A stretch of DNA of 64,000 bases. It comes from Corynebacterium sp. (lineage in GTDB: Bacteria > Actinomycetota > Actinomycetes > Mycobacteriales > Mycobacteriaceae). Location of the stretch: assembly GCF_030532325.1 (NCBI RefSeq), contig NZ_JAUNLS010000001.1:62001-126000 (forward strand), in the 5' to 3' direction. Below, in pieces: positions 4,198-61,490 of this stretch. The notes under the pieces were generated by a model. It was not told where the DNA came from and ran no database searches. It saw nothing but the letters and a program-made list of their open reading frames with translations. The position numbers and the translations under genes are program-made. How positions within the stretch are numbered: position 1 is the first letter of the stretch; every line of letters starts with the position of its first letter.

Positions 4198-4813
4198 TGA
4201 GCGCGCAGCCCGCCACGGCAAAGAAGGTTCCCGCCGCGATGTCAATCCACGGTCCCGCGGCCAGCATGCGCCGGCGAATCGCCGGGGTGGAAATCACCGT
4301 GCACAGCACGAGGAAGACCGCGTAGGCAGACAGCGACATGCTGAGGATGAGCACCACGGAAAGCCACAGCGGCGGGTGGGCGGGCAGCAGCGGGGCGATC
4401 ATCGCCGCGAGAAAGAGCACGATCTTCGGGTTGGAGAGGTTGGTGGCCAGCCCGGTGCGGAAGGCCTGGCGCAGGCTACCCAGGCGGGTGGCGGCCTCTT
4501 CCATGTCCGCCGGCGGGTTGCGGCGCAGCTCCAGGCCGCCGCGGATGGAGCGTACGCCCATGAAGATGAGGAAGGTGCCGCCGATGGCCTGAATGGCCTG
4601 CAGGATCCCGGGAAACGCGGTGAGCAGGGCCGCCGCGCCCATGACGGTGAGGGTGCACCAGAAGAGCACGCCGAGCTGGATGCCAGTGGCGGCCATGATG
4701 GCGTGCTTGCGCGAGCGGGTGGCGTACCGTGTGACCAGGACGATATCGGGGCCCGGGGCAATCGCTCCGAGGATGTTCATCACCAACAGCGCACCGAAGG
4801 CGGTGAGATTCAT
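4166..4813 (-). CDS. LysE/RhtB-family amino-acid exporter
   Basis: 215 aa inner-membrane protein with about six hydrophobic segments. The N-terminal GAIAPGPDIVLVTR motif and FLIFMGVRSIRGG segment are characteristic of RhtB/LysE exporters, which expel homoserine, threonine, lysine or similar amino acids by proton antiport. Its location near rpsT/holA matches the rhtB-like gene in other corynebacteria; the substrate is not readable from sequence. It starts with an ATGA overlap on the ankyrin gene, so the two are translationally coupled. The 3' end overlaps the restriction gene on the other strand. Confidence 0.85.
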   Translation of the reverse strand: MNLTAFGALLVMNILGAIAPGPDIVLVTRYATRSRKHAIMAATGIQLGVLFWCTLTVMGAAALLTAFPGILQAIQAIGGTFLIFMGVRSIRGGLELRRNPPADMEEAATRLGSLRQAFRTGLATNLSNPKIVLFLAAMIAPLLPAHPPLWLSVVLILSMSLSAYAVFLVLCTVISTPAIRRRMLAAGPWIDIAAGTFFAVAGCALITVSAAAALP

Positions 4814-5178
4814 GAAAGCCGCTCGAGGAGATCAGCGCGGCCGAACATGCGGGCCGAGTCCACGGCGTTGGGGTTGCCGGCCAGGGGGTCGGCGCCGGCG
4901 GCGAGGAGGGCGTCGATCACCGCGTCCTCCTTCTTGAAGATGGCCCCGGCCAGCGGGGACTGCTGGCGGTCATTGAGCAGGTTGACATCCGCGCCGGCGG
5001 CGGCGAGCTTGCGCACCAGCTCCGCGTGCCCGTGGTAGGCGGCGAGCATGATGAAGGACTGGCCTTCCTGGTTGACCAGATCGACGTTGACGCCCTGGGA
5101 GATATAGTCCAGCAGGGTCTCGTCCCCGTTGCGTGCGAAATCGAAGAGCTTTGAGGCAAATTCTTGGATATCGTCCAT
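4810..5178 (-). CDS. Small ankyrin-repeat protein
   Basis: 122 aa, cytoplasmic. It contains about three ankyrin repeats: NQEGQSFIMLAAYHGHAELVRKLAAAGADVN, then a KEDAVIDALLAAGADP unit and a degenerate last unit. Ankyrin repeats mediate protein binding; the partner is unknown. It overlaps the LysE-family gene by 4 bp (ATGA), so the pair forms an operon. Only 11 bp separate it from the holA stop, so read-through from holA is likely. Confidence 0.85.
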   Translation of the reverse strand: MDDIQEFASKLFDFARNGDETLLDYISQGVNVDLVNQEGQSFIMLAAYHGHAELVRKLAAAGADVNLLNDRQQSPLAGAIFKKEDAVIDALLAAGADPLAGNPNAVDSARMFGRADLLERLS

Positions 5179-5189
5179 AGCTTGTGAGT

Positions 5190-6143
5190 CTAACGTGCGA
5201 GCTCCGCGATCCTTCGCACGGCCGCCTCGATGGCGAATTCCTCCTCGCCGCCCTGGCCCTTGACGGCGGCGTCGAGCTCGGAGACGAGGATCACCGCCTT
5301 GGAGATGTTCTCCCCCGACCAGCGCCGCGCCACGGGCTGCGTCATCTTGACCACGTAGGGCGCTAGCCCCGCCTGCTTGGCCACCGAGAACTGATCCCCG
5401 CGCGCGGAGTAGAGCCGGGCGATGGCGCCGACCTTGTTGGCCAGGGCCGCAGCGATGGCCACGGGGCTCGCCCCGAGCTGCAGGGCGCGGCGGCAGGTGG
5501 ACACCGCCTCCTCCAGCTTGCCGGCCACGGCGGCATCCGCGATGTCCCAGTTGGCGACCTCCGCGATACTCACGTAGTACTGGCGCACCGCCTCGCGGGT
5601 GACGTTGCCGTTGGTGTCAAAGACCAGCTGGGAGATGGCCGAGGCCAGCTCACGCAGGTCGGAGCCGACGCCGTCGAGCACCGCCTGCACCACGTCCGGG
5701 GTGGGCCGCACGCCGTGCGCGGCGAACTCGCGGGTGGCCCAGGGCCCCAGCTCGTTGGTGTAGAGGGAGAAGACCTCGTGCACCTCGGCGAATGTACGCA
5801 GCTTGGCGACGATCTCCGGGGGCTTCTTCTTGCCCTTCAAGGTCTTGGCCGTCACCGAGTAGATGAGCACGAGGGTCATGCCGGGCATGGGGTTGGAGCA
5901 GGCGTCGAGAAGAATGCGCGTGACCTCCTTGCCAGCGCGCTCGACGTCGCTGATTACGATGACGCGGTTATCCCCGAAGAGGGAGGGGCTGGTGGCCTCC
6001 AGGAGTTCGCCCTCACTGACCTCGGAGGCCTTGAGTCGGCGCAGCTCCACGCCCTGACCCGCTGCCTTTTGGATGGACAGGCGGGCGCGCTCGGTGAGGA
6101 ATTCATCGTCTCCGAGGATGAGGTGCACGGCAGCTGTAGACAT
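5190..6143 (-). CDS. holA: DNA polymerase III delta subunit
   Basis: 317 aa. Clamp-loader subunit that opens the beta sliding clamp. The start MSTAAVHLILGDDEFLTERA at ATG 6143 matches family N-termini; the open frame extends further upstream into comEC, without homology. LRELASAISQLVFD in the middle and the C-terminal collar domain (WSGENISKAVILVSELDAAVKGQG) are recognisable. Only 5 bp separate it from comEC. The lineage order comEA-comEC-holA is common in Actinobacteria and Firmicutes. Confidence 0.95.
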   Translation of the reverse strand: MSTAAVHLILGDDEFLTERARLSIQKAAGQGVELRRLKASEVSEGELLEATSPSLFGDNRVIVISDVERAGKEVTRILLDACSNPMPGMTLVLIYSVTAKTLKGKKKPPEIVAKLRTFAEVHEVFSLYTNELGPWATREFAAHGVRPTPDVVQAVLDGVGSDLRELASAISQLVFDTNGNVTREAVRQYYVSIAEVANWDIADAAVAGKLEEAVSTCRRALQLGASPVAIAAALANKVGAIARLYSARGDQFSVAKQAGLAPYVVKMTQPVARRWSGENISKAVILVSELDAAVKGQGGEEEFAIEAAVRRIAELAR

Positions 6144-7459: not shown

Positions 7460-8082
7460 AGGCGGACCTGATCCTTGATGGTCTCCATTTTGGCGGGGCC
7501 GATGCCGGAGACGTCGAGAAGCTGCTCAATCGAGCTGAAGCCACCGATCTCCTCGCGGTGCGCCACGATGGCCTCCGCGGTGACCTCCCCTATCCCCTTG
7601 AGCTGCGTGAGCTGCTCGGCGCTGGCGGTATTCAGGCTCAGCGCGCCCTCCTCGGCCGGCTCGGCGGGCTGTTCGCCTGGCTTGGCGACGACCACCTGTT
7701 CCCCATCCTTGAGCCTCTGTGCCTGGTTGAGGGCGAGCAGATCCGCCTCGGGGCGCGGGCGGGCGGCCGAGAGGGCGTCGGCCACCCGCGCGCCCGGCGG
7801 CAGCGTGACCAGGCCGGGGTTATCCACCTCCCCGACCACCGAGACGATGAGCTCGCTGGGCTCGGCGGGCTCGCTGCTCACCGCCGCCTCCAGGTAGGGG
7901 TTGGGCGCCGGCCGGGAGCTCAGCCCCAGCCACACCACCAGGCCCACCACGGCAACGGCCACCAGCCCCAGGGCCAGCGGGACGGGCACCTTGAGGCGCG
8001 GGCGCGGGAAGTCGACGGTGAGGAGCTCCTCCTCGCCGGTGGGGCGGGTGAGTTCGCGCAGGCGGTCGCTGACGGGGTTCAT
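7456..8082 (-). CDS. comEA: ComEA-like DNA-binding protein
   Basis: 208 aa from ATG 8082. A short cytoplasmic N-terminus is followed by one membrane helix (around residues 34-50, LALGLVAVAVVGLVVWLG), an SLBB-like domain (VVGEVDNPGLVTLPPGARVADAL) and a C-terminal double helix-hairpin-helix (LNTASAEQLTQLKGIGEVTAEAIV). In competent bacteria ComEA binds incoming double-stranded DNA on the outer face of the membrane. It is coupled to comEC by a 4-bp overlap. The open frame extends to 8205 without homology. Confidence 0.9.
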   Translation of the reverse strand: MNPVSDRLRELTRPTGEEELLTVDFPRPRLKVPVPLALGLVAVAVVGLVVWLGLSSRPAPNPYLEAAVSSEPAEPSELIVSVVGEVDNPGLVTLPPGARVADALSAARPRPEADLLALNQAQRLKDGEQVVVAKPGEQPAEPAEEGALSLNTASAEQLTQLKGIGEVTAEAIVAHREEIGGFSSIEQLLDVSGIGPAKMETIKDQVRL

Positions 8083-46536: not shown

Positions 46537-48075
46537 TTAAGCCGTTTCCTTCACGGACGCGGCCACGGCTTCCGTGTCGGCCTTGCGCACGTAGTCCATA
46601 TCCCTGCCGTAGATGGTCAGGCCTGTGATGTCATGGGTCTGGCGGCCCTTGAACAGGAAGGAGGCGAGCCAGCCCACCACCAATGTGACCAGGAAGGCCA
46701 CGATGGAGACGATGAAGGGACCCTTGTCCAGGCCACCGGCGAAGTAGGCGGAGACCGCACCCAAGATGAGGCCGATGAGCACGCCATTCGCGTTCGCGGT
46801 CTTGGTGAAGATACCCAGAGCAAAGACTGCCGTGAGCGGGACACCGAACAGGCCCGTGATGGCCAGGAAGAGATCCCACAGGTCGGACTGGTTGGTGGCC
46901 ACCAGGTAGAGGGCCACGAGCACGCCGATGAGTCCGGCCACGATGATAACTATGCGCGAGAGTGCCACGGAGGCGGTCTTGCCAGAGAAGCGGTTGTAGA
47001 TGTCCACCACCACGCAGGCGGAGATGGAGTTCAGAGAGGAGGAGATGGTGGACTGTGCTGCCGCCAGGATGGCCGCGATGAGCAGGCCGGCGATGCCGGC
47101 GGGCAGCTCAGAGAGGATGAAGTAGGGAACGACAGCGGAGGTGTTCACACCCTCCGGCAGGCCGCCCTTGGCTTGGTAGAAGTTGTATAGCGCGGTGCCC
47201 ATGCCGTAGAAGAGCGGGATGGTCACCAGGGCAAGCACGCCGTTGACCAGGAGGGACTTCTTGGTCGCTTCAATGGTCGGGGTGGTCTGGTAGCGCTGGA
47301 CCACGTCCTGCGAGGAGGTGTACTGATGCAGGCTGTTGAGGATGTTGCCAATGAAAATCAGCGGGATGGAAGTAAGGAAGGCGTCCGAGGTGGTGGAGAA
47401 GTTCTCCGCGCTGTAGAACTTGCCTTCCGCGGCGGCGTCGCTCAAAGCGCCGCTGAAGCCATCCGGGGTCATAGCCATGGCGGTCAGCACCACCACCGCA
47501 GCACCGGCCAGCAAGAGGATGCCCTGGATGACGTCCGACCAGATAACACCCTCCATGCCACCGAGGAAGGTGTAGATGATGCACAGGAAGCCCACGCAGG
47601 AGGCAACCACCAACGGGTTGAGGTCTGCCACCGAGGTGATAGCGAGGGTGGGCAGGTACACCACGATGGCGATGCGCCCCACGTGGTAGAGCACGAAGAG
47701 CAGGGATCCCAGCACGCGAAGTAGAACTGAGAAGCGCTCCTCCAAATACTCATAGGCCGTGGTCACGTCGAGCTTGCGGAAGAAGGGGACGTAGAAGCCA
47801 ATGAGGATGGGCACGATGGCAAAGATGGCCAGGTTGCCCGCGGAGTAGGCCCAGTCCGTCAGGTAGGCCTTTTCCGGGGTGGACATGAAGGTGATTGCGG
47901 AGAGCGTGGTGGCGTAGATGGAAAAGCCCGCCGCCCAGCCGGGGATCCTGCCACCGGCTTTGAGGAAGTCATCCTGACTGTTACCGGCTCTTCTGGCGAA
48001 GTACCCGCCCACCACAAGCATTCCTAGTAGGTAAAGAATCAAGACTATCCAGTTGAGTGTTCCGAATGACTGCAC
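46537..48075 (-). CDS. Sodium:solute symporter, probable sialic-acid transporter
   Basis: 512 aa from GTG 48075, with AAAGGA 7 nt before it. SSS-family protein with 13 or so membrane helices: NWIVLILYLLGMLVVGGYFA, SIYATTLSAITFMSTPEKAY (Na-binding region of the LeuT fold), GGMEGVIWSDVIQG, and SLHQYTSSQDVVQRY in the middle. SSS transporters are one of the known bacterial sialic-acid uptake types. Its place beside nanR and nanEKA makes N-acetylneuraminate the likely substrate, by context. It is divergent from the GntR gene. C. glutamicum uses an ABC importer instead. Confidence 0.88.
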   Translation of the reverse strand: MQSFGTLNWIVLILYLLGMLVVGGYFARRAGNSQDDFLKAGGRIPGWAAGFSIYATTLSAITFMSTPEKAYLTDWAYSAGNLAIFAIVPILIGFYVPFFRKLDVTTAYEYLEERFSVLLRVLGSLLFVLYHVGRIAIVVYLPTLAITSVADLNPLVVASCVGFLCIIYTFLGGMEGVIWSDVIQGILLLAGAAVVVLTAMAMTPDGFSGALSDAAAEGKFYSAENFSTTSDAFLTSIPLIFIGNILNSLHQYTSSQDVVQRYQTTPTIEATKKSLLVNGVLALVTIPLFYGMGTALYNFYQAKGGLPEGVNTSAVVPYFILSELPAGIAGLLIAAILAAAQSTISSSLNSISACVVVDIYNRFSGKTASVALSRIVIIVAGLIGVLVALYLVATNQSDLWDLFLAITGLFGVPLTAVFALGIFTKTANANGVLIGLILGAVSAYFAGGLDKGPFIVSIVAFLVTLVVGWLASFLFKGRQTHDITGLTIYGRDMDYVRKADTEAVAASVKETA

Positions 48076-48185
48076 GGGGGTGTCCTTTCTCGCGCCTCCG
48101 AAGCCGCGAGGGAATACACGCGCCAAGGAGATGTACATCACGTTCCACACCGCGATGTGGTTCCGCATACTTGAAGAAAGGATAC

Positions 48186-48199
48186 ATCAGACGTCTGAT
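48186..48199. promoter_or_regulatory. Candidate NanR operator 1
   Basis: Perfect 14-bp palindrome ATCAGACGTCTGAT between the divergent transporter and regulator genes, 110 bp before the transporter GTG and 67 bp before the regulator ATG. A close relative lies before nanA (51734-51747). Confidence 0.6.
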
Positions 48200-48228
48200 C
48201 TCCAACAGGTTTTGATGCATACTTTGGG

Positions 48229-48234
48229 TATAAA
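48229..48234 (+). promoter_or_regulatory. Candidate -10 of nanR
   Basis: TATAAA, 31 nt before ATG 48266, leaving room for a short leader with the AAGGAG site. No convincing -35 is seen; the operator lies just upstream. Confidence 0.45.
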
Positions 48235-48265
48235 CACCCCTACCGATGCCCCCGAAGGAGCCGCC

Positions 48266-49036
48266 ATGCCGCGCAGTAAGATGAAGACCTTAGGCGCACC
48301 GGAGAAAGGATCAGCAGTGAGTGCCGTCAACAGCACAGCGTGGGGAATGGCAAGCCCCCACGATCGCACCCCCACCACCGCGCAGCTCGCGGTCGACGGC
48401 ATCAAGGATTACATCCGCAGCAACGGCCTCAAGCCCGGCGATACCATGCCGACCGAAACCGAGCTCTGCGCCGAGCTGGGCTTTTCCCGCTCCTCGGTGC
48501 GCGAGGCCATTCGCACGCTGGTGGCCCTGGACATCGTCGAGGTCCGGCACGGACGCGGGACCTTCGTCTCACAGGCGCGGCTGAGCGCACTGGTCCAGGG
48601 GCTCATCTTCCGGGCCAGCCTTGACTCCGAGGGGCAGTTCGAGACCTTGCGCTATGTGGTCGAGACCCGCCGGGCGATGGATCTTTCCATCGGCGAGGAG
48701 GCCGCCCGCGCGCTCGATGACGCCACCTTTGAGCAGCTCACCGAGCTTGTCGACGCCATGGATGCCAAGCGCGAGCACAACTTCGCCGACGAGGACCGCC
48801 AGTTCCACCGCGTGCTGCTCTCGGTGATCGATAACCCGATCATCCGCGAGCTTAACGACGCCTTCTGGCAGGTTCACATGGAGGTCATCCCCCTGCGCGG
48901 CATCGCGAAGCCGCGCGATCTGGGGCGCACGGTGCGCGCGCACCGCGCCATCCTCGAAGCGCTGCGGGCCGGGGACATGGATGCCTACCGGGCCGCGGTC
49001 AACGAGCACTACCAGCCCTTGCTCGAAGAGCTTTAA
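48266..49036 (+). CDS. nanR: GntR/FadR-family regulator, probable NanR
   Basis: 256 aa from ATG 48266, chosen for AAGGAG 5 nt before it. The winged HTH (AVDGIKDYIRSNGLKPGDTMPTETELCAELGFSRSSVREAIRTLVALDIVEVRHGRGTFV) is followed by an FCD ligand domain with metal-type His residues (DRQFHRVLL, VRAHRAILEAL, VNEHY). It is surrounded by nan genes and is likely to repress them until a sialic-acid intermediate is bound. The 3' end converges with nanE (23-bp gap). Confidence 0.85.
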   Translation: MPRSKMKTLGAPEKGSAVSAVNSTAWGMASPHDRTPTTAQLAVDGIKDYIRSNGLKPGDTMPTETELCAELGFSRSSVREAIRTLVALDIVEVRHGRGTFVSQARLSALVQGLIFRASLDSEGQFETLRYVVETRRAMDLSIGEEAARALDDATFEQLTELVDAMDAKREHNFADEDRQFHRVLLSVIDNPIIRELNDAFWQVHMEVIPLRGIAKPRDLGRTVRAHRAILEALRAGDMDAYRAAVNEHYQPLLEEL

Positions 49037-49058
49037 ACCAGCGCAATCTCGAGGAGCT

Positions 49059-49766
49059 TTAGCCCCCGTTAAACTGGCGGGTAATCCACGCCGGATCCGT
49101 GATCGCGGTGCCCACAATGACCGCATTCGCCCCGGCCTCCATGCCGGCTAGCGCCTGCTCGCGGGAGGAGAAGCGCCCCTCGCCGATGATGAAGGCCTCG
49201 GGTCCCAACAGCTCACGGCCGCGCGCGATGCACTCGAGGTCCGGCCCTTCAGTCTTCTCACGGAACTCGGTGTAGCCCGCCAGGGTCGTGGAGACAATAT
49301 CGGCCCCTGCGCGGTGGGCGGCCAGCATTTCCTCGGGCGTCGAGCAATCCGCCATGGCGAGGACCCCCTGCGCGTGGCACTCCTTGACGATGTCAGCGTA
49401 GGTGGAGCCATCGGGGCGCGGCCGCTCGGTGGCATCGGCGCACACCACTGCGGCGCCTGCCGCGGCCAGCGCGCGCACGGACTCGCGGGTAGGCGTGATG
49501 TAGACCCCCTCGCTGCCCTCCTTGGTCAGGCCAAAGACGGGGACGTCAACGGCGCGGGCGATGGAGTTGACGTCCGCAATCCCGCCGTAGCCGCCGCAGC
49601 GAATGGCCGGGCTTCCGCCCGCCACGCAGGCGCGGGCCACATGGGTCAGGGTGTGCGTATCGCGCATGGGGTGCCCGTCGGGAGCCTGCACGGACACAAT
49701 CACCTTGCCGCGGATGAGCGAGTACAGCTCCTCGCGCGGCTCAGCATTCTCAAAGCTGAAGGTCAT
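49059..49766 (-). CDS. nanE: N-acetylmannosamine-6-phosphate 2-epimerase
   Basis: 235 aa TIM barrel. Converts ManNAc-6-P to GlcNAc-6-P. VSVQAPDGHPMRDT, AIRCGGYGGIADV, TREYVR-like TPTRESVRAL, CADATERPRPDG and GADIVSTTLAGYT are NanE motifs. It is the distal gene of nanA-nanK-nanE, with a 27-bp gap from nanK. No nagA/nagB is present in this window, so the product must join a pathway encoded elsewhere. Confidence 0.95.
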   Translation of the reverse strand: MTFSFENAEPREELYSLIRGKVIVSVQAPDGHPMRDTHTLTHVARACVAGGSPAIRCGGYGGIADVNSIARAVDVPVFGLTKEGSEGVYITPTRESVRALAAAGAAVVCADATERPRPDGSTYADIVKECHAQGVLAMADCSTPEEMLAAHRAGADIVSTTLAGYTEFREKTEGPDLECIARGRELLGPEAFIIGEGRFSSREQALAGMEAGANAVIVGTAITDPAWITRQFNGG

Positions 49767-49793
49767 AGGCTGTTTCCTCCTGAGACAGCATGG

Positions 49794-50735
49794 TTAAAAG
49801 GCATAATCACGAGCGTAGGCCGCGGCGCCGAGGATGGGCGCTGTGGCCGGCGAGCTGGTGACGAAGGTGGGGATATCCTTATTCGGCCGCAGGGCATGCT
49901 CGTGGATGGCCTGCGTGAAGGGCTTCTCCACGGCCTCACCGATGTGCGAGACACCGCCGCCGAGAACCACGGCGTCGAGATCAAAGCCGGAGGCCAAGCC
50001 CGCCACCGCGCGGCCCAAGCCGTAGGCGTTTCCCTCGATGATGCGCCGGGCGAGCTCGTCGCCGGCGTGCATGCGCTGGACCACCTCTTCCAGCGGCACG
50101 CGCAGCTCGCATCTGTCGCGCCACGGGATGCGGCCGACGCTGGGATCCGCAGAAATCTCCTCGTAGTAGGCGGCGAGCCCGTTTCCGCTCATGATGTTTT
50201 CTGCTCGGTCGGCATAGCCGCGAAAGTCTGCGCACAGCAGTTCCGAGAACTCCCCGGCGGTGCCGGTGGGGCCGCTGAGCAGGGCGCCGCGCTCACTGAC
50301 CGCTCCGCCCACGCCGGTGCCGAGGGCGAGGAAGAGAACCCGCCCCTCCCGGAATTCCTGCGCCTGCCCCACGGTGAGCTCGCCATAGGCCCAGATGCGC
50401 ACGTCGTTGTGCACTGCGCAGGGCACATCGATGACCTCGCGAGCTAGGCCGCGCACATCCGTGCCCGTCCAGCCCTTCATGGTGTCGCCGTTGTGCACGA
50501 CTATCCCCTCGGGCGCGGCAATCGCACCGGGTGAGCCGATGCCGATGCGCGCCGGAGTGATACCGGAGTCCTCCACCGCTTGGGCGATGGCCTTCTGGAT
50601 CTGTTCCTGCGGCGATCCGCCGGGCGGCTGGGTGGGGATGCGGCCTAAGTTCGTAGCCTGCACTGGGTCCTCGTCAGCCACGAAGCCCCAGGCAATCTTG
50701 GTGGCGCCCACATCGAGCGCAAGTGTGGTGGCCAT
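49794..50735 (-). CDS. nanK: ROK-family kinase, probable N-acetylmannosamine kinase
   Basis: 313 aa from ATG 50735; the open frame extends upstream over the nanA end without homology. LALDVGATKIAWGFV is the phosphate-binding start and FLALGTGVGGAVSERG is the ROK signature. The usual CxCGxxGC zinc motif of ROK proteins is missing: the region after GTAGEFSELL reads CADFRGYADRAENI. Context between nanA and nanE supports ManNAc phosphorylation. It is 7 bp from nanA. Confidence 0.88.
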   Translation of the reverse strand: MATTLALDVGATKIAWGFVADEDPVQATNLGRIPTQPPGGSPQEQIQKAIAQAVEDSGITPARIGIGSPGAIAAPEGIVVHNGDTMKGWTGTDVRGLAREVIDVPCAVHNDVRIWAYGELTVGQAQEFREGRVLFLALGTGVGGAVSERGALLSGPTGTAGEFSELLCADFRGYADRAENIMSGNGLAAYYEEISADPSVGRIPWRDRCELRVPLEEVVQRMHAGDELARRIIEGNAYGLGRAVAGLASGFDLDAVVLGGGVSHIGEAVEKPFTQAIHEHALRPNKDIPTFVTSSPATAPILGAAAYARDYAF

Positions 50736-50742
50736 GGCGCGC

Positions 50743-51687
50743 TTAGGGCTCGGTGATCTCGGCGGCGTCGACAATTGCGGCGATGCGCGCGTTCTCTTCC
50801 TCGTTCAGCGCAACGTGCGGCTGGGACATCAGGCCGGAGGGGAAGATGCCGAGGTGGTGGAGCGCAGACTTGAAGCTTCCCAGACCCTGGGAGCTGCCGC
50901 CCATGCGTGCGGGATCACCCACGGTGACGATCTCAAAGAGATCGCAGATCTTGTTCTGCAGCTCGGCGGCCTCCGGGTACTTGCCCGCCACGAGGAGCTC
51001 GTGCAGGGTGACGTAGGAAACGGGGTCCACGTTGCCCAGGCCCGGGACGACGCCGTCCGCGCCGGCCAAGTAGGCAAAGTCCACGGTGGTCTCTGAACCG
51101 GTGAGGATGGCAAAATCCTTCAGCTCGGCCTTGTTGCGCGCGCTGATGAGGGAGCGGGTGTAGCCGTCGACGCCGCCGGAATCCTTCACGCCGGCCAGCA
51201 CGCCCTCCTGCGCCAGGCGGATCAGGGAGGAGATGTCCAGCACGTTGTGCACGCTCACCGGGATGTTGTAGGCGTAGATCGGGGTCTGCGGGGCCGCCTT
51301 GTGCAAGAGGCGGAAGTGTTCCTCGATTTCCACCGGGTGGGTGCGCACGTAGAAGGGGGCGGTGGCCACGAGCCCGTCGACGCCAAGTGCCACGGCGTCC
51401 TCACTGTGCTCGATGACGCGCGGGGTGGTCATGTCAATGACGCCGGCGATGACGGGAAGACGGCCGGCCGCCTGCTCCATGACGGTGGAGATGACCTGCT
51501 TGCGCTGCTCGCGGGTAAGGAAGGCCACCTCACCTGAGGAGCCGAGGACAAAGAGGCCGTGCACGCCGGCCTTGATAAGACGCTCAGTGTGCTTGGCCAA
51601 GGTCTCGGTATCGACGCTGTAGTCACTGTTCAGCGGGGTGAGCAGCGGCGGGACAACGCCGTGCAGAAGCTCAGTGTTAGCTGCCAT
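50743..51687 (-). CDS. nanA: N-acetylneuraminate lyase (DapA family)
   Basis: 314 aa from ATG 51687 with GAAGG 9 nt before it. Class I aldolase barrel: GLFVLGSSGEVAFLT (substrate carboxylate loop), IYAYNIPVSVH (Tyr) and VLAGVKDSGG with the Schiff-base Lys. It could in principle be another DapA-family aldolase, but the nanK-nanE neighbours make sialic acid cleavage to pyruvate and ManNAc the best call. First gene of the nanA-nanK-nanE operon, with a NanR-like site upstream. Confidence 0.9.
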   Translation of the reverse strand: MAANTELLHGVVPPLLTPLNSDYSVDTETLAKHTERLIKAGVHGLFVLGSSGEVAFLTREQRKQVISTVMEQAAGRLPVIAGVIDMTTPRVIEHSEDAVALGVDGLVATAPFYVRTHPVEIEEHFRLLHKAAPQTPIYAYNIPVSVHNVLDISSLIRLAQEGVLAGVKDSGGVDGYTRSLISARNKAELKDFAILTGSETTVDFAYLAGADGVVPGLGNVDPVSYVTLHELLVAGKYPEAAELQNKICDLFEIVTVGDPARMGGSSQGLGSFKSALHHLGIFPSGLMSQPHVALNEEENARIAAIVDAAEITEP

Positions 51688-51733
51688 GAGTATCAACCTT
51701 CGTGTCGGGGACGGGAATCAAGAGTCATAAGAC

Positions 51734-54109: not shown

Positions 54110-54122
54110 GTCACCCACTAGA

Positions 54123-54133
54123 TTGTTCAACAA
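54123..54133. promoter_or_regulatory. FadR-type GntR operator before pxpA
   Basis: TTGTTCAACAA, inside the 13-bp palindrome ATTGTTCAACAAT (54122-54134). It fits the FadR-subfamily consensus TNGTNNNACNA. An identical core lies before the NRAMP-like gene (61473-61483). Confidence 0.75.
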
Positions 54134-54153
54134 TATTGGAAGGGGATGTGGCC

Positions 54154-54921
54154 GTGTCCTTGAGCGCGCTTTCCATTGACCTCAACGCCGACTTAGGAGA
54201 GACCACCGCGGGCAACCCCGTGGCCGATGACACCGCCATGCTCAGCATGGTCTCCTCCGCCAACGTGGCCACCGGCTTCCACGCCGGGGACCCCCACTCC
54301 ATCGCCGCCACCGTGCGCGCCGCCGCCGAGGCCGGGGTTACCGTGGGCGCGCACGTGGGCTACAACGATCCCGCCGCCTTCGGGCGCCGCTTCATCGACT
54401 ACGCCCCAGCGGAGCTGGCCGATGAAATCACCTATCAGATCGGCGCGCTCGACGCCCTGGCCCGCGCCGCCGGCACCCGCGTGGCTTACGTCAAGCCGCA
54501 CGGTGCGATGTACAACGCCATCGTCCACCACGAGGCCCAGGCCCAGGGCGTCGTCGCCGGCGTCAAGGCCTTCGGGGATCTTCCTCTCATGCTGCTGCCG
54601 GGCGGCGTGGCCGTGGACATGGCGGAGAAGCAGGGCCTGACCGTCATCCGCGAGGCCTTCGCCGACCGCAACTACAACCCCGACGGCACCCTGGTTTCCC
54701 GCCGCGAGCCGAATGCGGTGCTGGGTAACGCGCAGGACGTGGTCCAGCGCGTCATCGGTGTGGCCGAGACCGGCTCGATTACCGCCATCGACGGCAGCGT
54801 GCTCAACGTCGACGCGCAGTCCGTGTGCACCCACGGTGATTCCCCCGGCGCGGTGGAGCTGCTGCGCGGGGTCGTGGCCGAGCTGAACACCCGCGGCATC
54901 GAGATTCGGAGCTTCCTCTAA
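54154..54921 (+). CDS. pxpA: 5-oxoprolinase subunit A (LamB/YcsF family)
   Basis: 255 aa from GTG 54154, with GGAAGGGG 8 nt before it. SIDLNADLGETTAG, NVATGFHAGDPHSIAATVRAAAEAGVTVGAHVGYND and AYVKPHGAMYN are the YcsF/PxpA motifs, with a likely metal- or substrate-binding site of Asp and His residues. PxpA with PxpB and PxpC opens 5-oxo-L-proline to glutamate using ATP. The next gene overlaps by 1 nt (TAATG). Confidence 0.93.
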   Translation: MSLSALSIDLNADLGETTAGNPVADDTAMLSMVSSANVATGFHAGDPHSIAATVRAAAEAGVTVGAHVGYNDPAAFGRRFIDYAPAELADEITYQIGALDALARAAGTRVAYVKPHGAMYNAIVHHEAQAQGVVAGVKAFGDLPLMLLPGGVAVDMAEKQGLTVIREAFADRNYNPDGTLVSRREPNAVLGNAQDVVQRVIGVAETGSITAIDGSVLNVDAQSVCTHGDSPGAVELLRGVVAELNTRGIEIRSFL

Positions 54922-56519
54922 TGCACATCCATCCCGTGGGCACGCGCGCCCTGCTGGTGGAGCTGGACGGGCTGGAGCAGGTGATGACCTGGCACGAAGC
55001 CCTTAGCCACCGCCCGCTCAAAGATCAGGTCGACGCCATCGCCGCCGCCACTACCCTCCTGCTCACCTTCGAGACCCCCAACTCCGCCCACGCCGCCGCG
55101 GAGTTCCTCCAGGATTTCCAGCCGGCCGCCCAGGCCAGCGGCGAGCCGCGCCTGGTAGAGATTGACGTGCTCTACGACGGCGAGGACCTCGACGAGGCCG
55201 CCGACCTGCTGGGGATGTCCCGCGAGGGGCTCATTGACTGGCACACCTCCACCGAGTGGCTCGCAGCCTTCGGCGGCTTCGCGCCCGGCTTTACCTATTG
55301 CACGCCGGCGGATGCCTCCCGGGGCGTGGACATCGAGCGCCGCGCTACCCCACGCACCGCGGTGCCGGCCGGCGCGGTGGGCATCGCCGGCAACTTCTCC
55401 GCGGTCTACCCGCGGGTCTCCCCCGGCGGCTGGCAGCTGCTGGGCACAACCACCACCCCCATGTGGCAGTCCGACGCCCAACCGCCCGCCCTCGTGCAGC
55501 CCGGTGACCGCGTGCACTACCGCGCGGTGAGCTCCCTGCCGGACTTCGTCTCCTCCACCCCGCTGGGCCGGCGCTCCCCGGCGCGCCTGCCGCGCATGGA
55601 GGTGCTCGATTCCGGCCTGCTCACCCTCTTCCAGGATCAGGGCCGCCCCGGCCGCGGCAACCTGGGGGTGACCCCCTCGGGCGCTGCGGATCAGGCCGCG
55701 GCCGCCACCGCGAACGTGGCCGTGGGCAACCCCCGCGAGGCCACCGTGCTGGAAAACATCGGCGGCATGAGCCTGCGCGCGCTCACCGATACCGTCATCT
55801 GCGTCACCGGCGCCCAGACGCGGGTGCTTCTCGACGCCATGCCGGTCCACCTCGCCCGCCCGGTCCTGGTCACCGCGGGCTCCACGGTGCGCGTCGAGCC
55901 CGCTCAGCTGGGTATGCGTTCCTACGTGGCCATCCGCGGCGGCATCGTGGCGGATACGGAGCTGGGCTCGGCCTCCACCGACATCCTCTCCGGCCTGGGC
56001 CCCTCACCGGTGCGGCTCGGCGATGTCATCGGTGTCCTGCCCCGCTCCACCGCCATGACCGACGCCCAGCTTGCCAACCCGCTGCGCGTGTGCGAAGGCG
56101 AGCACGGGGAGACCACCGGCGTGCTGCGCTGCGTGCTGGGCCCGCGCGATGACTGGTTTACCCAGGAAACCATCGAGGCCTTCCTCTCCACGCAGTGGGA
56201 GGTCACTCCGCAGACCAACCGCGTGGGCCTGCGCCTGCGCGCCGAGAACGCCCCAGCGCTTGCCCGCGCGCGCAGCGGCGAGCTGCCCAGCGATGGCATG
56301 GTGGCCGGCTCCGTGCAGGTCCCGCCCTCCGGAGAGCCCGTGGTCTTCCTCCGCGACCACGCTGTGACCGGCGGCTACCCCGTCATCGCCACGGTCTTGG
56401 AAGAGGACATCGACATCGCCGCCCAGCTGCCACCGGGAGGAACCGTCCGCTTCGAGCTGGTCACCATCGATTCCCCCATCCACTCCACCGACGTCCACTC
56501 CGCCACCCAGGAAGGTTAA
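54921..56519 (+). CDS. Fused 5-oxoprolinase subunits B and C (KipI-KipA type)
   Basis: 532 aa. Residues about 1-205 are PxpB/KipI (allophanate hydrolase subunit 1): WLAAFGGFAPGFTYCTPAD, RRATPRTAVPAGAVGIAG and SPGGWQLLGTT. Residues about 225-520 are PxpC/KipA (subunit 2): LLTLFQDQGRPGRGNLGVTPSGAADQAAAATAN, YVAIRGGI and NRVGLRLRAEN. In B. subtilis kipI and kipA are separate; the fusion matches the arrangement of the carboxyltransferase half of urea carboxylase. It overlaps pxpA and is followed 2 bp later by the biotin carboxylase gene. Confidence 0.92.
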   Translation: MHIHPVGTRALLVELDGLEQVMTWHEALSHRPLKDQVDAIAAATTLLLTFETPNSAHAAAEFLQDFQPAAQASGEPRLVEIDVLYDGEDLDEAADLLGMSREGLIDWHTSTEWLAAFGGFAPGFTYCTPADASRGVDIERRATPRTAVPAGAVGIAGNFSAVYPRVSPGGWQLLGTTTTPMWQSDAQPPALVQPGDRVHYRAVSSLPDFVSSTPLGRRSPARLPRMEVLDSGLLTLFQDQGRPGRGNLGVTPSGAADQAAAATANVAVGNPREATVLENIGGMSLRALTDTVICVTGAQTRVLLDAMPVHLARPVLVTAGSTVRVEPAQLGMRSYVAIRGGIVADTELGSASTDILSGLGPSPVRLGDVIGVLPRSTAMTDAQLANPLRVCEGEHGETTGVLRCVLGPRDDWFTQETIEAFLSTQWEVTPQTNRVGLRLRAENAPALARARSGELPSDGMVAGSVQVPPSGEPVVFLRDHAVTGGYPVIATVLEEDIDIAAQLPPGGTVRFELVTIDSPIHSTDVHSATQEG

Positions 56520-56521
56520 CC

Positions 56522-58273
56522 ATGATTTCCGCTGTCCTTATTGCTAACCGCGGCGAGATCGCCGTCCGCATCGCCCGCGCCGCCCGCGACCTGGGTATCC
56601 GTTCCATCGCCATCTATTCCGAGGCCGACGCCGGCGCACTGCACACCCGCGTGGCCGACGAGGCCTACGCCCTACCGGGCAACTCCGCGGCCGATACCTA
56701 CATGAACGTGCCGGCCCTGCTCGATATCGCCGTGCGTGCCGGCGCCGACGCCGTCCACCCCGGCTACGGCTTCCTCTCCGAGAACGCTGACTTCGCCCGC
56801 GCCGTCGCCAGTGCCGGGCTGACCTGGGTGGGCCCCTCGCCGGAATCCATCGAGCTGCTTGGTGACAAGATTGCCGCCCGCCGCGTGGCCGAGGAGGTCG
56901 GCGCCCCGCTCGCCCCCGGCACCTCCGATCCGATCGATGACTGGCAGGAGGCCCGCGCCTTCGCCGAGGAGCATGGCCTGCCCATCGCTATCAAGGCCGC
57001 CTACGGCGGCGGCGGGCGCGGCCTCAAGGTGGTCGAGCGCCTCGAGGACATCGAGGCCGCCTTCAACTCCGCCGGGCGCGAGGCTAAGGAGGCCTTCGGC
57101 CGCGCGGAGTGCTACGTGGAAAAGTTCCTCACCCGCCCGCGCCACGTCGAGGCACAGGTGCTGGCTGATTCCCATGGCAACGTCGCCGTGCTGGGCACCC
57201 GCGACTGCTCCACCCAGCGCCGCTTCCAGAAGCTCATCGAGGAGGCCCCAGCCCCCGCGCTCACCGAGGAGCAGCGCCGCGGCATCCACGAGGGCGCGCG
57301 CGCCATCTGCGCCAAGGTGGGCTACACCGGCGCGGGCACCGTGGAGTACATCGTCTCCGAGGACGGCACCATCTCCTTCCTCGAGGTCAACACCCGCGTG
57401 CAGGTGGAGCACCCCGTCACCGAGATGGTCACCGGGGTGGACATCATCGCGGAGCAGTTCCGCATCGCCGCCGGCGAGCCGCTCTCCTTCAGCGGGGATC
57501 CGGAGACCACCGGCCACGCCTTCGAGTTCCGCATCAACGCCGAGGACATCCTCAACGGTTTCGCGCCCTGCCCCGGCACCATCGTTCACTTCGAGCCGCC
57601 CACAGGCCGGGGCATCCGCGTCGACGCCGGCGTGCGCTCGGGCTCCATCGTGCCGCCGTACTATGACTCGCTCATCGCCAAGCTCCTGGTGTGGGGGCCG
57701 ACCCGCGAGGTCGCCCTGGCCCGCGCCAAGGAAGCACTCGCGGAGTTCGACGTCGAGGGCGTGCGCACCGTGCTGCCCTTCCACCGCGACATGGTGGATT
57801 CCCAGGTGCTCAAGGATCACGGCGATAGCGAGGCCAGCGCCGGTATCTACACCGACTGGCTGGATCACAATTACCGCCCCTCGGCGGCGGCCGGCAGCCA
57901 CATCGCCCCCGTGGAGGCCATCTACGCCAAACGCACCCAGGTGGCCGTGGAGATCGACGGCAAGCTGGTCAGCGTCGGCGTGCCGGAGTCGCTCTTCAGC
58001 GCTGCCGCTAGCTCATCCGCGGCGGGCGCGGCGCACCCCGGCGAGCAGGACTCGTCCGCGGCCGCGGGCGCGGTGACCGCGCCTTACGACGCCAACCTGG
58101 TGGCCTGGAACGTCTCCGACGGCGACAGCGTGGCCGAGGGCGATGAGATTGCCACCATCGAAGCGATGAAGATGGAATCCTCCGTCAAGGCGCCCTCGGC
58201 AGGCACCATCACCCTCAAGGTCAAGCAGGGCGAGCGGCTGGCCGCGGGCAGCGTGCTGGCCACGATTAGCTAA
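56522..58273 (+). CDS. Biotin carboxylase with C-terminal biotin carrier domain
   Basis: 583 aa from ATG 56522, with AGGAAGG 6 nt before it; the open frame extends upstream without homology. Biotin carboxylase: VLIANRGEIAVRIARAARDLG, ATP-grasp glycine loop KAAYGGGGRGLKVVE, and LEVNTRVQVEHPVTE. An about 90-residue linker then leads to a BCCP domain with EAMKMES (biotinylated Lys550). It has no carboxyltransferase of its own; the PxpBC-type protein encoded just before is homologous to the carboxyltransferase of urea carboxylase and is the likely partner. It could alternatively serve another acyl-CoA carboxylase, but none is nearby. Confidence 0.93.
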   Translation: MISAVLIANRGEIAVRIARAARDLGIRSIAIYSEADAGALHTRVADEAYALPGNSAADTYMNVPALLDIAVRAGADAVHPGYGFLSENADFARAVASAGLTWVGPSPESIELLGDKIAARRVAEEVGAPLAPGTSDPIDDWQEARAFAEEHGLPIAIKAAYGGGGRGLKVVERLEDIEAAFNSAGREAKEAFGRAECYVEKFLTRPRHVEAQVLADSHGNVAVLGTRDCSTQRRFQKLIEEAPAPALTEEQRRGIHEGARAICAKVGYTGAGTVEYIVSEDGTISFLEVNTRVQVEHPVTEMVTGVDIIAEQFRIAAGEPLSFSGDPETTGHAFEFRINAEDILNGFAPCPGTIVHFEPPTGRGIRVDAGVRSGSIVPPYYDSLIAKLLVWGPTREVALARAKEALAEFDVEGVRTVLPFHRDMVDSQVLKDHGDSEASAGIYTDWLDHNYRPSAAAGSHIAPVEAIYAKRTQVAVEIDGKLVSVGVPESLFSAAASSSAAGAAHPGEQDSSAAAGAVTAPYDANLVAWNVSDGDSVAEGDEIATIEAMKMESSVKAPSAGTITLKVKQGERLAAGSVLATIS

Positions 58274-58283
58274 AGTAATCCGC

Positions 58284-58886
58284 ATGCTTGCAGATTCCGT
58301 CGCGGCCGCGCTGCGCACCGCCATCTCCGAAGGCGAGTTCATGCCCGGCCAACAGCTCAGCGAGGTGCGCGCCGCCGAGCGCTTCAACTGCTCCCGCAAC
58401 ACCCTGCGGGAGGCTTTTGCCATGTTGACCTCGGAGCACATCGTGGAGCGCATCCCCAACCGCGGCGTTTTCATCGCCACCCCGGACCGGGACTTCGTGC
58501 GTGATCTCTACCTCGCGCGCGCCGCCATCGAGCCCTCCGCCGCGCGCTACGGTACCTTCGATCACCCCGAGGCCCTCGTGGACTTGACCGAGCAGGCGCT
58601 GCGGGAGGACGCCCCCTTGCCCCTCATCAATCAGCGCTTCCACAAGGCGTTGGTGGCGGGCCTGCATTCCCCCACCCTGGACCGCACGATGTCCAACCTG
58701 CTGGCCCGCATGCGCGTGACCTTCCTGCTGGCGCTGCAGCGCAAGCCCGACATCCACGCCGAGCACATCGAGACCAACCTCGAGCTAGCCACGCTCATCG
58801 CCGCGGGCAAGCGCGAGGAGGCAGCGGAGGCCTCCCGCGCGGATCTCACCCGCGCGATGAACTCCATCATCGCGGTACTGGACTAA
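58284..58886 (+). CDS. GntR/FCD-family regulator of the pxp locus
   Basis: 200 aa from ATG 58284, 10 bp after the biotin carboxylase. Winged HTH (TAISEGEFMPGQQLSEVRAAERFNCSRNTLREAFAMLTSEHIVERIPNRGVFI) and an FCD domain (LPLINQRFHKALVAG, HAEHIETNLELATLI). It stands where kipR ends the B. subtilis kip operon, but belongs to another family. It is the natural candidate to bind the two TTGTTCAACAA sites that flank the locus. Confidence 0.88.
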   Translation: MLADSVAAALRTAISEGEFMPGQQLSEVRAAERFNCSRNTLREAFAMLTSEHIVERIPNRGVFIATPDRDFVRDLYLARAAIEPSAARYGTFDHPEALVDLTEQALREDAPLPLINQRFHKALVAGLHSPTLDRTMSNLLARMRVTFLLALQRKPDIHAEHIETNLELATLIAAGKREEAAEASRADLTRAMNSIIAVLD

Positions 58887-59350: not shown

Positions 59351-60136
59351 TCAAGGCACCTGATAGTCGAGGTCCCGGGCATCAGTAACCAGCATCTTGC
59401 CCGGGGCGTGGGTGATGGCCAGGCGCGGCGTGGAGTTCATCACGATGGCCTGCGGGGTCACCCCGCACGCCCAGAACACCGGGATGGTGCCCTCCGGGAT
59501 GTCGATGGCCTCGCCGAAGTCGGGGCGGGACAAGTCCTCGATGCCGATGGCCGCGGGATCGCCCACGTGCACCGGCGCACCGTGGACGGAGGGATAGCGG
59601 GAGGTAATCCGTACGGCGTCGGCCACCTGGTGGGCTGGGATGGGCCGCATGGACACCACCATCGGTCCGGAGAAGACTCCTGCCGGCGTGGTGGGGATGC
59701 TGGTGCGGTACATCGGCACGTTGCGGCCCTGCTCGATGTGGGCGATGGCGATGCCGTTGTCCTGCAGAGCGGTCTCAAAGGTAAAGGAGCAGCCGATGAG
59801 GAAGCTGACCATGTCCTCGGTGTAGAAGGAGGTGGCGTTGTCCAGCGTGTGCGTGAGCACTCCGTCCTCGTAAATGTTGTAGGCCGGGATGTCGGTGCGG
59901 ATGTCCCCGCCGGGGAGGAGATCGGAGGTGAACATCCCGGCCTCCAGCACGCCGACTATCGGGCAGGGTTTGGGGTTGCGCTGCGCAAAGAGCAGGAAGT
60001 CAAAGGCGTACTCCTGTGGCACGGCCAGCAGGTTGGCCTGCATGTAGCCGCGGGCGTGGCCGGCGGTGGTGACCATGTCGTGCTCGCGGGCGAAAGCGCG
60101 GACCTCTGCGGGAGTCTTCAGCGTGGGGATGGCCAT
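59351..60136 (-). CDS. DUF1445 (YcsI-like) putative hydro-lyase
   Basis: 261 aa from ATG 60136, overlapping the transporter stop (TAATG). TTAGHARGYMQANLLAVPQEYAFDFLLFAQRNPKPCPIVGV, CSFTFETALQDNGI and PVFWACGVTPQAIVM are the DUF1445 signatures. In B. subtilis ycsI lies between ycsG and kipI; in vertebrates D-glutamate cyclase, which interconverts D-glutamate and 5-oxo-D-proline, contains a DUF1445 region. A cyclase or lyase role on glutamate or 5-oxoproline is thus plausible by family and context. Confidence 0.9.
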   Translation of the reverse strand: MAIPTLKTPAEVRAFAREHDMVTTAGHARGYMQANLLAVPQEYAFDFLLFAQRNPKPCPIVGVLEAGMFTSDLLPGGDIRTDIPAYNIYEDGVLTHTLDNATSFYTEDMVSFLIGCSFTFETALQDNGIAIAHIEQGRNVPMYRTSIPTTPAGVFSGPMVVSMRPIPAHQVADAVRITSRYPSVHGAPVHVGDPAAIGIEDLSRPDFGEAIDIPEGTIPVFWACGVTPQAIVMNSTPRLAITHAPGKMLVTDARDLDYQVP

Positions 60137-61416
60137 TATGCCCACAGCTTCGCAATGCCAGAGATGGAATTGACGCCGATGTAAATCTCTAGGATCAGCG
60201 CCAGCAGGCCGAGGACAAGCAGCCACTTGGGCTGCTTGATGCCCTGGGTGAGATCGTGGCGGCGGAAAGCCACCCACATGACCATGGCAAAGGCAATCGG
60301 CAAGATAATGCCGTTGAAGGCGCCCGCGAAGATGAGCAGCTTCTGCGGTGCGGAGTTGAGGATGACAAAGAGGATGGTGCACACCGCAATGAAGCCCACG
60401 GTGAGCAGATTGCGGGTGCGCGGCTTGGTGTCCTGGGTGGTCACGAAGGTAATCGAGGTATAGGAGGCACCGATGACGGAGGAGAGGCCAGCGGCGAAAA
60501 GCACCACGCCGAAGGCACGCAAGCCGAACTCGCCGGCGGCGTGGTGGAAGGCGTCGGCAGCCGTGTTGTCCTCGGACAGGGCCACGCCGGTGGCCACCAC
60601 GCCGAGCACCGCCAGGAAGAGCAGAATGCGCATGATGCCAGTGATGATGATGCCCAGCACGGAGGTCTGCGTGATCTGCTTGACGTGCTCGGGGCCGGTG
60701 AGGCCGGAGTCAATGAGGCGGTGCGCGCCCGCAAAGGTGATGTAGCCACCCACGGTGCCACCGATGAGGGTGGTGATGACAAAGAAGTCCACCTTCTCCG
60801 GCATAACGGTGTTCTTCAGGGCCTCACCCACCGGCGGCTGGGAGACAATCGCCACGTAGAGCATGAGCAGGATCATGATGGCGCCCAGGGCCGCCACGAT
60901 GCGATCGAGCGCCACGCCGGCGCGCTTGGACAGGAATATGAAGACGGCGATGGCCGCGGCGATGACGCTACCCAGGCGGGCGTCGATGCCGAGCATGGCG
61001 TTCAGGCCCAGACCGGAGCCGGCGATGTTGCCAATGTTGAAGACCATGCCGCCGATGAAGACCAGGATGGCCAGAAACCAGCCCAGGCCGGGCAGCACGG
61101 TGTTGCCCAGCTCGTTGGCGCGCTTGCCGGACACGGCGAGCACGCGCCACACGTTGAGCTGGATGGCGATGTCTACGAGGATGGACAGGACGATGGCGAA
61201 CGCGAAGGCCGCGCCCATCTGAACGGTAAAGACCGAGGTTTGGGTCAAAAAGCCCGGGCCGATGGCGGAGGTGGCCATAAGGAACATGGCACCGGCCATG
61301 GCACCGATGCCCTTGGGCGCAGCGGGCTTCTGTGCAGAGGCCACGGCCGAGGCGGAATCGGGAGCCGTGCCAGAGTGACCCTCGGGGCCGGAGGTGGTGA
61401 TTGGTTCAGAACTCAC
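60136..61416 (-). CDS. NRAMP-like transporter lacking the metal motif (YcsG type)
   Basis: 426 aa from GTG 61416, with AAAGG 9 nt before it. About 11 membrane helices. In the position of the NRAMP metal motif DPGN it reads AIGPGFLTQT, and the MPH motif in helix 6 reads GAHRL, so divalent-metal transport is unlikely. The B. subtilis homologue YcsG sits in the kip operon. Uptake of an organic substrate such as 5-oxoproline is inferred from the context. Its promoter is overlaid by a FadR-type operator. Confidence 0.87.
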   Translation of the reverse strand: MSSEPITTSGPEGHSGTAPDSASAVASAQKPAAPKGIGAMAGAMFLMATSAIGPGFLTQTSVFTVQMGAAFAFAIVLSILVDIAIQLNVWRVLAVSGKRANELGNTVLPGLGWFLAILVFIGGMVFNIGNIAGSGLGLNAMLGIDARLGSVIAAAIAVFIFLSKRAGVALDRIVAALGAIMILLMLYVAIVSQPPVGEALKNTVMPEKVDFFVITTLIGGTVGGYITFAGAHRLIDSGLTGPEHVKQITQTSVLGIIITGIMRILLFLAVLGVVATGVALSEDNTAADAFHHAAGEFGLRAFGVVLFAAGLSSVIGASYTSITFVTTQDTKPRTRNLLTVGFIAVCTILFVILNSAPQKLLIFAGAFNGIILPIAFAMVMWVAFRRHDLTQGIKQPKWLLVLGLLALILEIYIGVNSISGIAKLWA

Positions 61417-61462: not shown

Positions 61463-61490
61463 AGCTTAGGGGTTGTTCAACAATCTGCAA
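61463..61490 (-). promoter_or_regulatory. Promoter of the NRAMP-like/DUF1445 unit
   Basis: Minus strand TTGCAG (61490-61485), 16-bp spacer, TAAGCT (61468-61463), 47 bp before the start codon. The operator occupies the spacer. Confidence 0.6.
61473..61483. promoter_or_regulatory. FadR-type GntR operator before the NRAMP-like gene
   Basis: TTGTTCAACAA, identical to 54123-54133, located between the -35 and -10. The two sites bracket the whole 7.3-kb locus. Confidence 0.75.

Follow-up and report, generated by a model that had tools for sequence, protein, structure and literature searches.

Organization of the locus

The window, by which we mean the whole stretch of 64,000 nucleotides of Corynebacterium DNA that was analysed, contains a conserved operon that has its own biotin carboxylase (BC) and lies behind an operator of the 5-oxoproline type. 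The features are listed in order of position.

54120–54136: PxpR-type operator upstream of pxpA, AGATTGTTCAACAATAT, one mismatch to the Corynebacterium glutamicum site
54154–54921, + strand: pxpA, 255 aa, GTG start, LamB/YcsF-type 5-oxoprolinase subunit A
54921–56519, + strand: pxpBC, 532 aa, a fusion of PxpB with PxpC in a single frame
56522–58273, + strand: biotin carboxylase and biotin carboxyl carrier fusion (BC-BCCP), 583 aa, AccA3 type
58284–58886, + strand: GntR/FCD regulator, likely the PxpR equivalent (Pfam, and comparison with a split locus)
59351–60136, − strand: DUF1445 'D-glutamate cyclase' or putative hydro-lyase, adjoining the pxpT homologue (PF07286, NF003969)
60136–61416, − strand: NRAMP-family transporter, PxpT-type homologue (Pfam, and comparison with a split locus)
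61470–61486: second PxpR-type operator, upstream of the pxpT homologue, two mismatches

PxpA matches LamB_YcsF (PF03746) at 297 bits in Pfam and NF003814 at 317 bits in NCBIfam, where the cut-off is 226. In PxpBC, Pfam places CT_C_D (PF02682, 175.7 bits) at residues 1–191 and CT_A_B (PF02626, 268.5 bits) at residues 248–512, and BC-BCCP comprises Biotin_carb_N, CPSase_L_D2, Biotin_carb_C and Biotin_lipoyl domains. The domain matches of all three proteins exceed the Pfam cut-offs, and all the modules of a urea-carboxylase-type enzyme are therefore present beside PxpA, as the preliminary description of this DNA had stated. PxpBC also exceeds the NCBIfam cut-off of TIGR00724 (243 bits against 230.2). 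It falls below those for stand-alone PxpB (TIGR00370, 116.1 of 145.55 bits) and stand-alone PxpC (NF045499, 182.8 of 500 bits), which are annotation thresholds and not biochemical definitions. The three reading frames are open; pxpA and pxpBC overlap by 1 base and 2 bases separate pxpBC from the BC gene, so that pxpA, pxpBC and BC-BCCP most likely form a single transcript.

The regulator is 31% identical to its counterpart in a split pxp locus from this genus, and the NRAMP transporter 58% to the transporter of a split pxp locus. The product of a D-glutamate cyclase would be 5-oxo-D-proline; the DUF1445 gene stands beside the pxpT homologue, and this enantiomer may also be handled by the regulon. 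A GntR regulator, DUF1445 and an NRAMP transporter are partners of known pxp loci in the available part of PMC13274462. At 46537–51696 the window carries a cluster resembling those for sialic acid use, with an SSS-type transporter, a GntR regulator and NanE-, NanK- and NanA-like open reading frames, as judged by eye from the translations.

The biotin carboxylase and carrier protein

BC-BCCP retains K116, K158, E200, H208, K237, E275, E288, N290, R292, E296 and R337, residues with catalytic roles in the BC of Escherichia coli. The motif EAMKM places the biotinyl lysine at residue 550 (58169–58171). The protein thus has both marks of a biotin-dependent carboxylase, the catalytic residues and the biotinyl lysine, and the assignment of this gene to a biotin carboxylase with a biotin carrier is upheld. 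The ATP-grasp type domain of BC is the one ATP-binding family identified by Pfam in the three enzyme proteins; no nucleotide-binding Pfam family was matched in PxpA or PxpBC at E 0.001.

Some 37 kb further along, preceded by a rhodanese gene, the same genome encodes a second AccBC, with which the BC of the window is 55% identical. Because the genome has this separate AccBC, the BC-BCCP of the window is a dedicated paralogue. We rejected its assignment as the housekeeping alpha subunit of acetyl-CoA carboxylase, given the other AccBC and the position of the two in different clades.

Among linked BC proteins scored as the fused type, 97 of 98 have the biotinyl motif. The carrier domain is absent from two linked BC genes, at 4291–5766 of locus L054 and at 7721–9280 of L143, the latter near a contig end. 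The linked BC of L215 (5249–6427) is apparently shortened, with a frame of 393 aa.

Comparison of PxpBC with urea carboxylase

In the alignment, Lys1605 and Asp1584 of urea carboxylase, the latter of which we take to be an active-site residue, correspond to Arg140 and Phe124 of PxpBC. Lys1605 is given as the general base of urea carboxylase in the part of PMC5770610 available. Since both residues are replaced, the active site of PxpBC, as judged from the alignment, differs from that of urea carboxylase. The lysine is kept in the divergent group that contains L053. The possibility that the operon encodes urea carboxylase proper was discarded: Lys1605 is missing, the window proteins lack the urea-carboxylase layout (BC, CT and BCCP in one chain, with CT_A_B before CT_C_D), and both fall below the NCBIfam urea_carbox cut-off, with PxpBC reaching 165.7 and BC-BCCP 514.8 of 1303.85 bits.

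Loci L194, L203, L209 and L214 contain urea-carboxylase-type CT proteins in frames of 687–793 aa with CT_A_B followed by CT_C_D, and three of the four have an equivalent of Lys1605. No BC or BCCP was found around them in regions of 14 kb, and they may be further carboxyltransferases that borrow a biotin carboxylase.

There are 65 conserved columns in which PxpBC is the same in BC-linked loci (97 rows) and in BC-less loci (15 rows of the sister group and 16 others), and on this ground the two groups probably perform the same chemistry. A single clade-specific column separates the BC-linked rows from the 15 sister rows, and the idea that linkage to BC goes with a distinct active site of PxpBC was dropped for this reason. 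Either both groups use carboxybiotin or neither does. As the same conserved residues are kept with and without a linked BC, the carboxylation step may be general to PxpABC and not special to the locus in the window.

Operators and regulation

PxpR of C. glutamicum is a 5-oxoproline-binding repressor with the tested operator AGATTGTTCAACAATCT, according to the available text of PMC13274462. The number of matches to this operator expected by chance in the window is 0.03 at up to three mismatches. The rest of the genome has one further PxpR-like site, with three mismatches (G000:C20:17507-17523, L288), and in the 13 kb surrounding the other accBC no match has fewer than six mismatches.

The site was also sought in 41 loci of the same genus, both split and fused in type, within 260 bases upstream of pxpA or the transporter gene. 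With up to four mismatches allowed it lies before one or the other in 32 of 36 loci that have a GntR gene and in 0 of 5 that lack one (27 of 36 and 0 of 5 at up to three mismatches), counts for which the Fisher tests ignore relatedness. Letter-shuffled upstream regions gave a site in 12 of 3800 cases at up to four mismatches. The survey covers loci other than L050 and L224, where PxpC is missing, and the divergent loci L041, L053, L056, L210, L211 and L214, in which no operator site was found.

Since a PxpR operator precedes both pxpA and the pxpT homologue, 5-oxoproline, the cyclised form of glutamate, is most likely the substrate of the operon. The preliminary description had allowed for another lactam; with operators like that of the 5-oxoproline-binding PxpR of C. 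glutamicum before both transcription units, other lactams lose ground as the main substrate.

Linkage of biotin carboxylase to PxpBC

Relatives were collected with the fused PxpBC of Thioclava as query, and the sample comprises the best 80 of at least 574 confirmed relatives; these are nearest relatives, not a random draw. In this sample BC lies directly downstream of PxpBC in 72 of 80 loci, seven have no linked BC and one (L151) is cut by a contig end. PxpB and PxpC share one frame in 77 of the 80, as scored by script. The linkage of PxpBC to BC exceeds chance. By NCBI phylum the 80 divide into 52 Pseudomonadota, 27 Actinomycetota and one unassigned; the BC-less loci are all from Actinomycetota, where they make up 7 of 27, compared with 0 of 52 in Pseudomonadota (p = 0.0003 with relatedness ignored and L151 left out); L136 is here counted, by our assumption, as an actinobacterium.

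We fetched 40 of the 52 PxpA places, together with 20 further regions picked mostly for short PxpC frames. The PxpA loci of the same genus number 28 (L035–L062). Fused PxpB and PxpC with BC occur in 17 of these by script, and additionally in L052 and L060 by the table of open reading frames; in six, PxpB and PxpC are split and BC is absent, L053 and L056 are divergent loci whose BC is separate, and L050 is cut. Plasmids from Klebsiella pneumoniae, Pantoea, Thioclava and Shinella (L075–L078) also carry the module pxpA-pxpBC-BC. On a Tsukamurella plasmid (L079) a fused PxpBC is accompanied by a GntR gene and an MFS transporter, with no PxpA or BC nearby.

Phylogeny

In the FastTree phylogeny, which was built without L052 (no PxpB found in range) and L227 (PxpC too short), fused PxpBC forms one clade of 106 leaves with support of 0.97. 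A BC gene is nearby in 100 of these by script, the shortened copy of L215 included, and one of the six remaining leaves is the cut L151. The sister group comprises 15 split loci without BC, most of them arranged as in C. glutamicum, with regulator and then transporter ahead of A, B and C.

The BC tree omits the odd-numbered loci among L080–L159, rows under 380 aa and duplicates. Here a single clade of 85 holds the linked BC-BCCP proteins together with the actinobacterial paralogues of AccBC type, and within it the 25 linked copies of the genus of the window are set apart from 13 paralogues taken to be housekeeping (seven of the same genus). With support of 0.87, the BCs of L053 and L056 group with urea carboxylases. 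The BCs of L196, L198 and L200 are placed among BCs of AccC length, and L197 and L199 have theirs in another branch of this kind. Because linked BCs thus occur in AccA3-type, urea-carboxylase-near and AccC-length branches, the genes that stand beside PxpBC belong to three BC lineages or more, brought there by repeated joining or by replacement.

Systems without a linked biotin carboxylase

The genomes of six BC-less loci were searched, and each (6 of 6) has one full-length AccA3-type BC-BCCP elsewhere, as has the genome of the cut locus L151. A structure of PxpB and PxpC homologues, which we take to be mycobacterial, is relevant to such systems. The entry and chain names of PDB 9yx5 list these homologues together with AccA3, which suggests that PxpABC systems lacking a linked BC make use of a borrowed one and favours the use of carboxybiotin by both BC-linked and BC-less PxpBC. 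The PxpC so listed matches that of the split locus L204 at 488 bits, and no BC was found in the 14 kb region of L204. C. glutamicum grows on 5-oxoproline by means of pxpTABC, with no BC gene reported in the available part of PMC13274462.

Proposed mechanism and alternatives

We think it fairly probable that the operon encodes a biotin-dependent 5-oxoprolinase in which BC-BCCP charges biotin, PxpBC carboxylates the lactam nitrogen and PxpA opens the ring. Judging from its conserved residues, the BC domain would use ATP and bicarbonate to form carboxylated biotin on BCCP. PxpBC, a relative of the carboxyltransferase part of urea carboxylase, would use it to carboxylate 5-oxoproline on its lactam nitrogen, and this would activate the ring carbonyl in the way that urea carboxylase activates urea. 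Hydrolysis of the activated ring by PxpA would give N-carboxyglutamate, which would lose CO2 to leave glutamate; the transfer to 5-oxoproline and the opening of its ring by PxpA are steps that we infer. The net cost would be one ATP per ring opened, with CO2 playing a catalytic part, as in urea amidolyase. From the operator sequences, 5-oxoproline entering by the PxpT homologue would free both promoters of the PxpR-like repressor. PxpABC without a linked BC would draw on the housekeeping biotin carboxylase. N-carboxylation of the lactam before ring opening, suggested in the preliminary description, is in our view the best supported of the possible mechanisms.

Several observations count against a biotin mechanism. 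These are the replacements at Arg140 and Phe124, the seven of 80 loci without BC (among the best 80 of at least 574), the linked BCs of L054 and L143 that lack a carrier, growth of C. glutamicum on 5-oxoproline through a pxpTABC for which no BC gene is reported, and ATP hydrolysis by co-purified PxpB and PxpC, as cited in the part of PMC8453981 available. That text also describes PxpABC as dissimilar to ATP-dependent carboxylases of the acetone type. We are more tentative, at somewhat short of an even chance, about the wider proposal that every PxpABC is a biotin enzyme, with PxpBC a lactam N-carboxyltransferase, BC either dedicated or borrowed from acetyl/acyl-CoA carboxylase, and ATP spent on bicarbonate and not on phosphorylation of 5-oxoproline.

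The mechanism assumed in print, in the available part of PMC13274462, is phosphorylation by PxpBC. Applied to this operon, PxpBC would phosphorylate 5-oxoproline with ATP and PxpA would open the ring, while BC-BCCP would be a duplicated acetyl/acyl-CoA carboxylase alpha subunit and a bystander in the operon. The identity of 55% to the other AccBC of the genome is consistent with this, as is the view taken in the available parts of the Staphylococcus aureus and Lp. pentosus papers, where linked or extra accBC genes are held to serve fatty acid synthesis or to form an acetyl-CoA carboxylase. We nevertheless regard it as unlikely, because a bystander accords poorly with linkage in 72 of 80 loci (best 80 of at least 574), with three or more BC lineages beside PxpBC and with a separate clade of 25 linked BCs in the genus. 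PxpA and PxpBC, moreover, match no ATP-binding Pfam family, the PxpR operator precedes this operon while the surroundings of the other accBC (13 kb) offer six mismatches at best, and the chain list of 9yx5 points the same way. Quite unlikely, in our view, is a biotin-dependent carboxylase whose four modules serve another lactam, amide or ureide and take 5-oxoproline as a side substrate. The conserved columns of PxpBC that differ in part from urea carboxylase and the annotation of DUF1445 as D-glutamate cyclase would fit such an enzyme; the PxpR operators and the PxpT homologue argue against it, as do conserved columns that are the same as in BC-less relatives save for one clade-specific column. 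We give very little credence to a BC domain that works without biotin and hands carboxyphosphate or phosphate straight to PxpBC or 5-oxoproline: L054 and L143 (near a contig end) do have a BC with no carrier domain in the same frame, but of the 98 linked BC proteins that were scored as the fused type, 97 carry the biotinyl-lysine motif.

If the biotin-dependent mechanism is correct, a dedicated and co-regulated BC supplies the missing ATP step of PxpABC, and the lactam nitrogen is a new class of substrate for biotin carboxylases. Linked accBC genes would no longer be taken as genes of fatty acid synthesis, and biotin supply would be tied to the recycling of 5-oxoproline or glutamate, a link that can be tested.

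Comparison with known systems

PxpABC is encoded by the majority of 984 genomes in a survey by others, and its use of ATP is given as an assumption (PMC13274462, introduction). No account of a role for BC in PxpABC was found in open-licence literature among the matches listed, mostly at listing level. The preliminary description had singled out the locus as a candidate for an undescribed enzyme system. The BC is indeed dedicated; the arrangement itself is widespread and annotated in other genomes, in 72 of the best 80 of at least 574 relatives and in the operon of S. aureus.

The operon shares PxpA, PxpB and PxpC homologues, a PxpT-type transporter, a GntR regulator and a near-identical operator with the PxpABC systems of C. 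glutamicum (pxpTABC) and Bacillus subtilis. It differs from these in the fusion of PxpB with PxpC, in its own BC-BCCP directly downstream and in having DUF1445 and the transporter as a convergent unit of their own. In the available part of PMC11315280, a six-gene operon of S. aureus that includes pxpB, pxpC, pxpA, accB and accC likewise has BC and BCCP genes with pxpABC, and its accBC is interpreted as serving fatty acid synthesis; there accB and accC, like pxpB and pxpC, are named as separate genes, whereas here each of the two pairs is fused. Extra BC and BCCP genes are interpreted as an additional acetyl-CoA carboxylase, with pxpB and pxpC listed separately, in the part of PMC12427679 available, and that of PMC3199775 notes adjacent homologues of the CT halves of urea carboxylase as having no known function.

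The BC-BCCP architecture is that of AccA3-type acyl-CoA carboxylase alpha subunits (5mlk, 9yx5), but the BC of the window falls in a separate clade of the genus, linked to PxpBC and behind a PxpR operator. ATP- and bicarbonate-dependent opening of a lactam would be shared with the caprolactamase CapAB, which, in the available text of PMC8453981, belongs to the hydantoinase/oxoprolinase family, has no biotin carboxylase and is not similar to PxpABC. Urea carboxylase and urea amidolyase (Kluyveromyces lactis, 3va7, 5i8i) have the BC, BCCP, CT_A_B and CT_C_D modules in common with the operon, and in urea amidolyase too a hydrolase acts after the carboxyltransferase. Here, however, the modules are divided between two polypeptides, CT_C_D precedes CT_A_B instead of following it, Lys1605 and Asp1584 are replaced, and PxpA takes the place of allophanate hydrolase.
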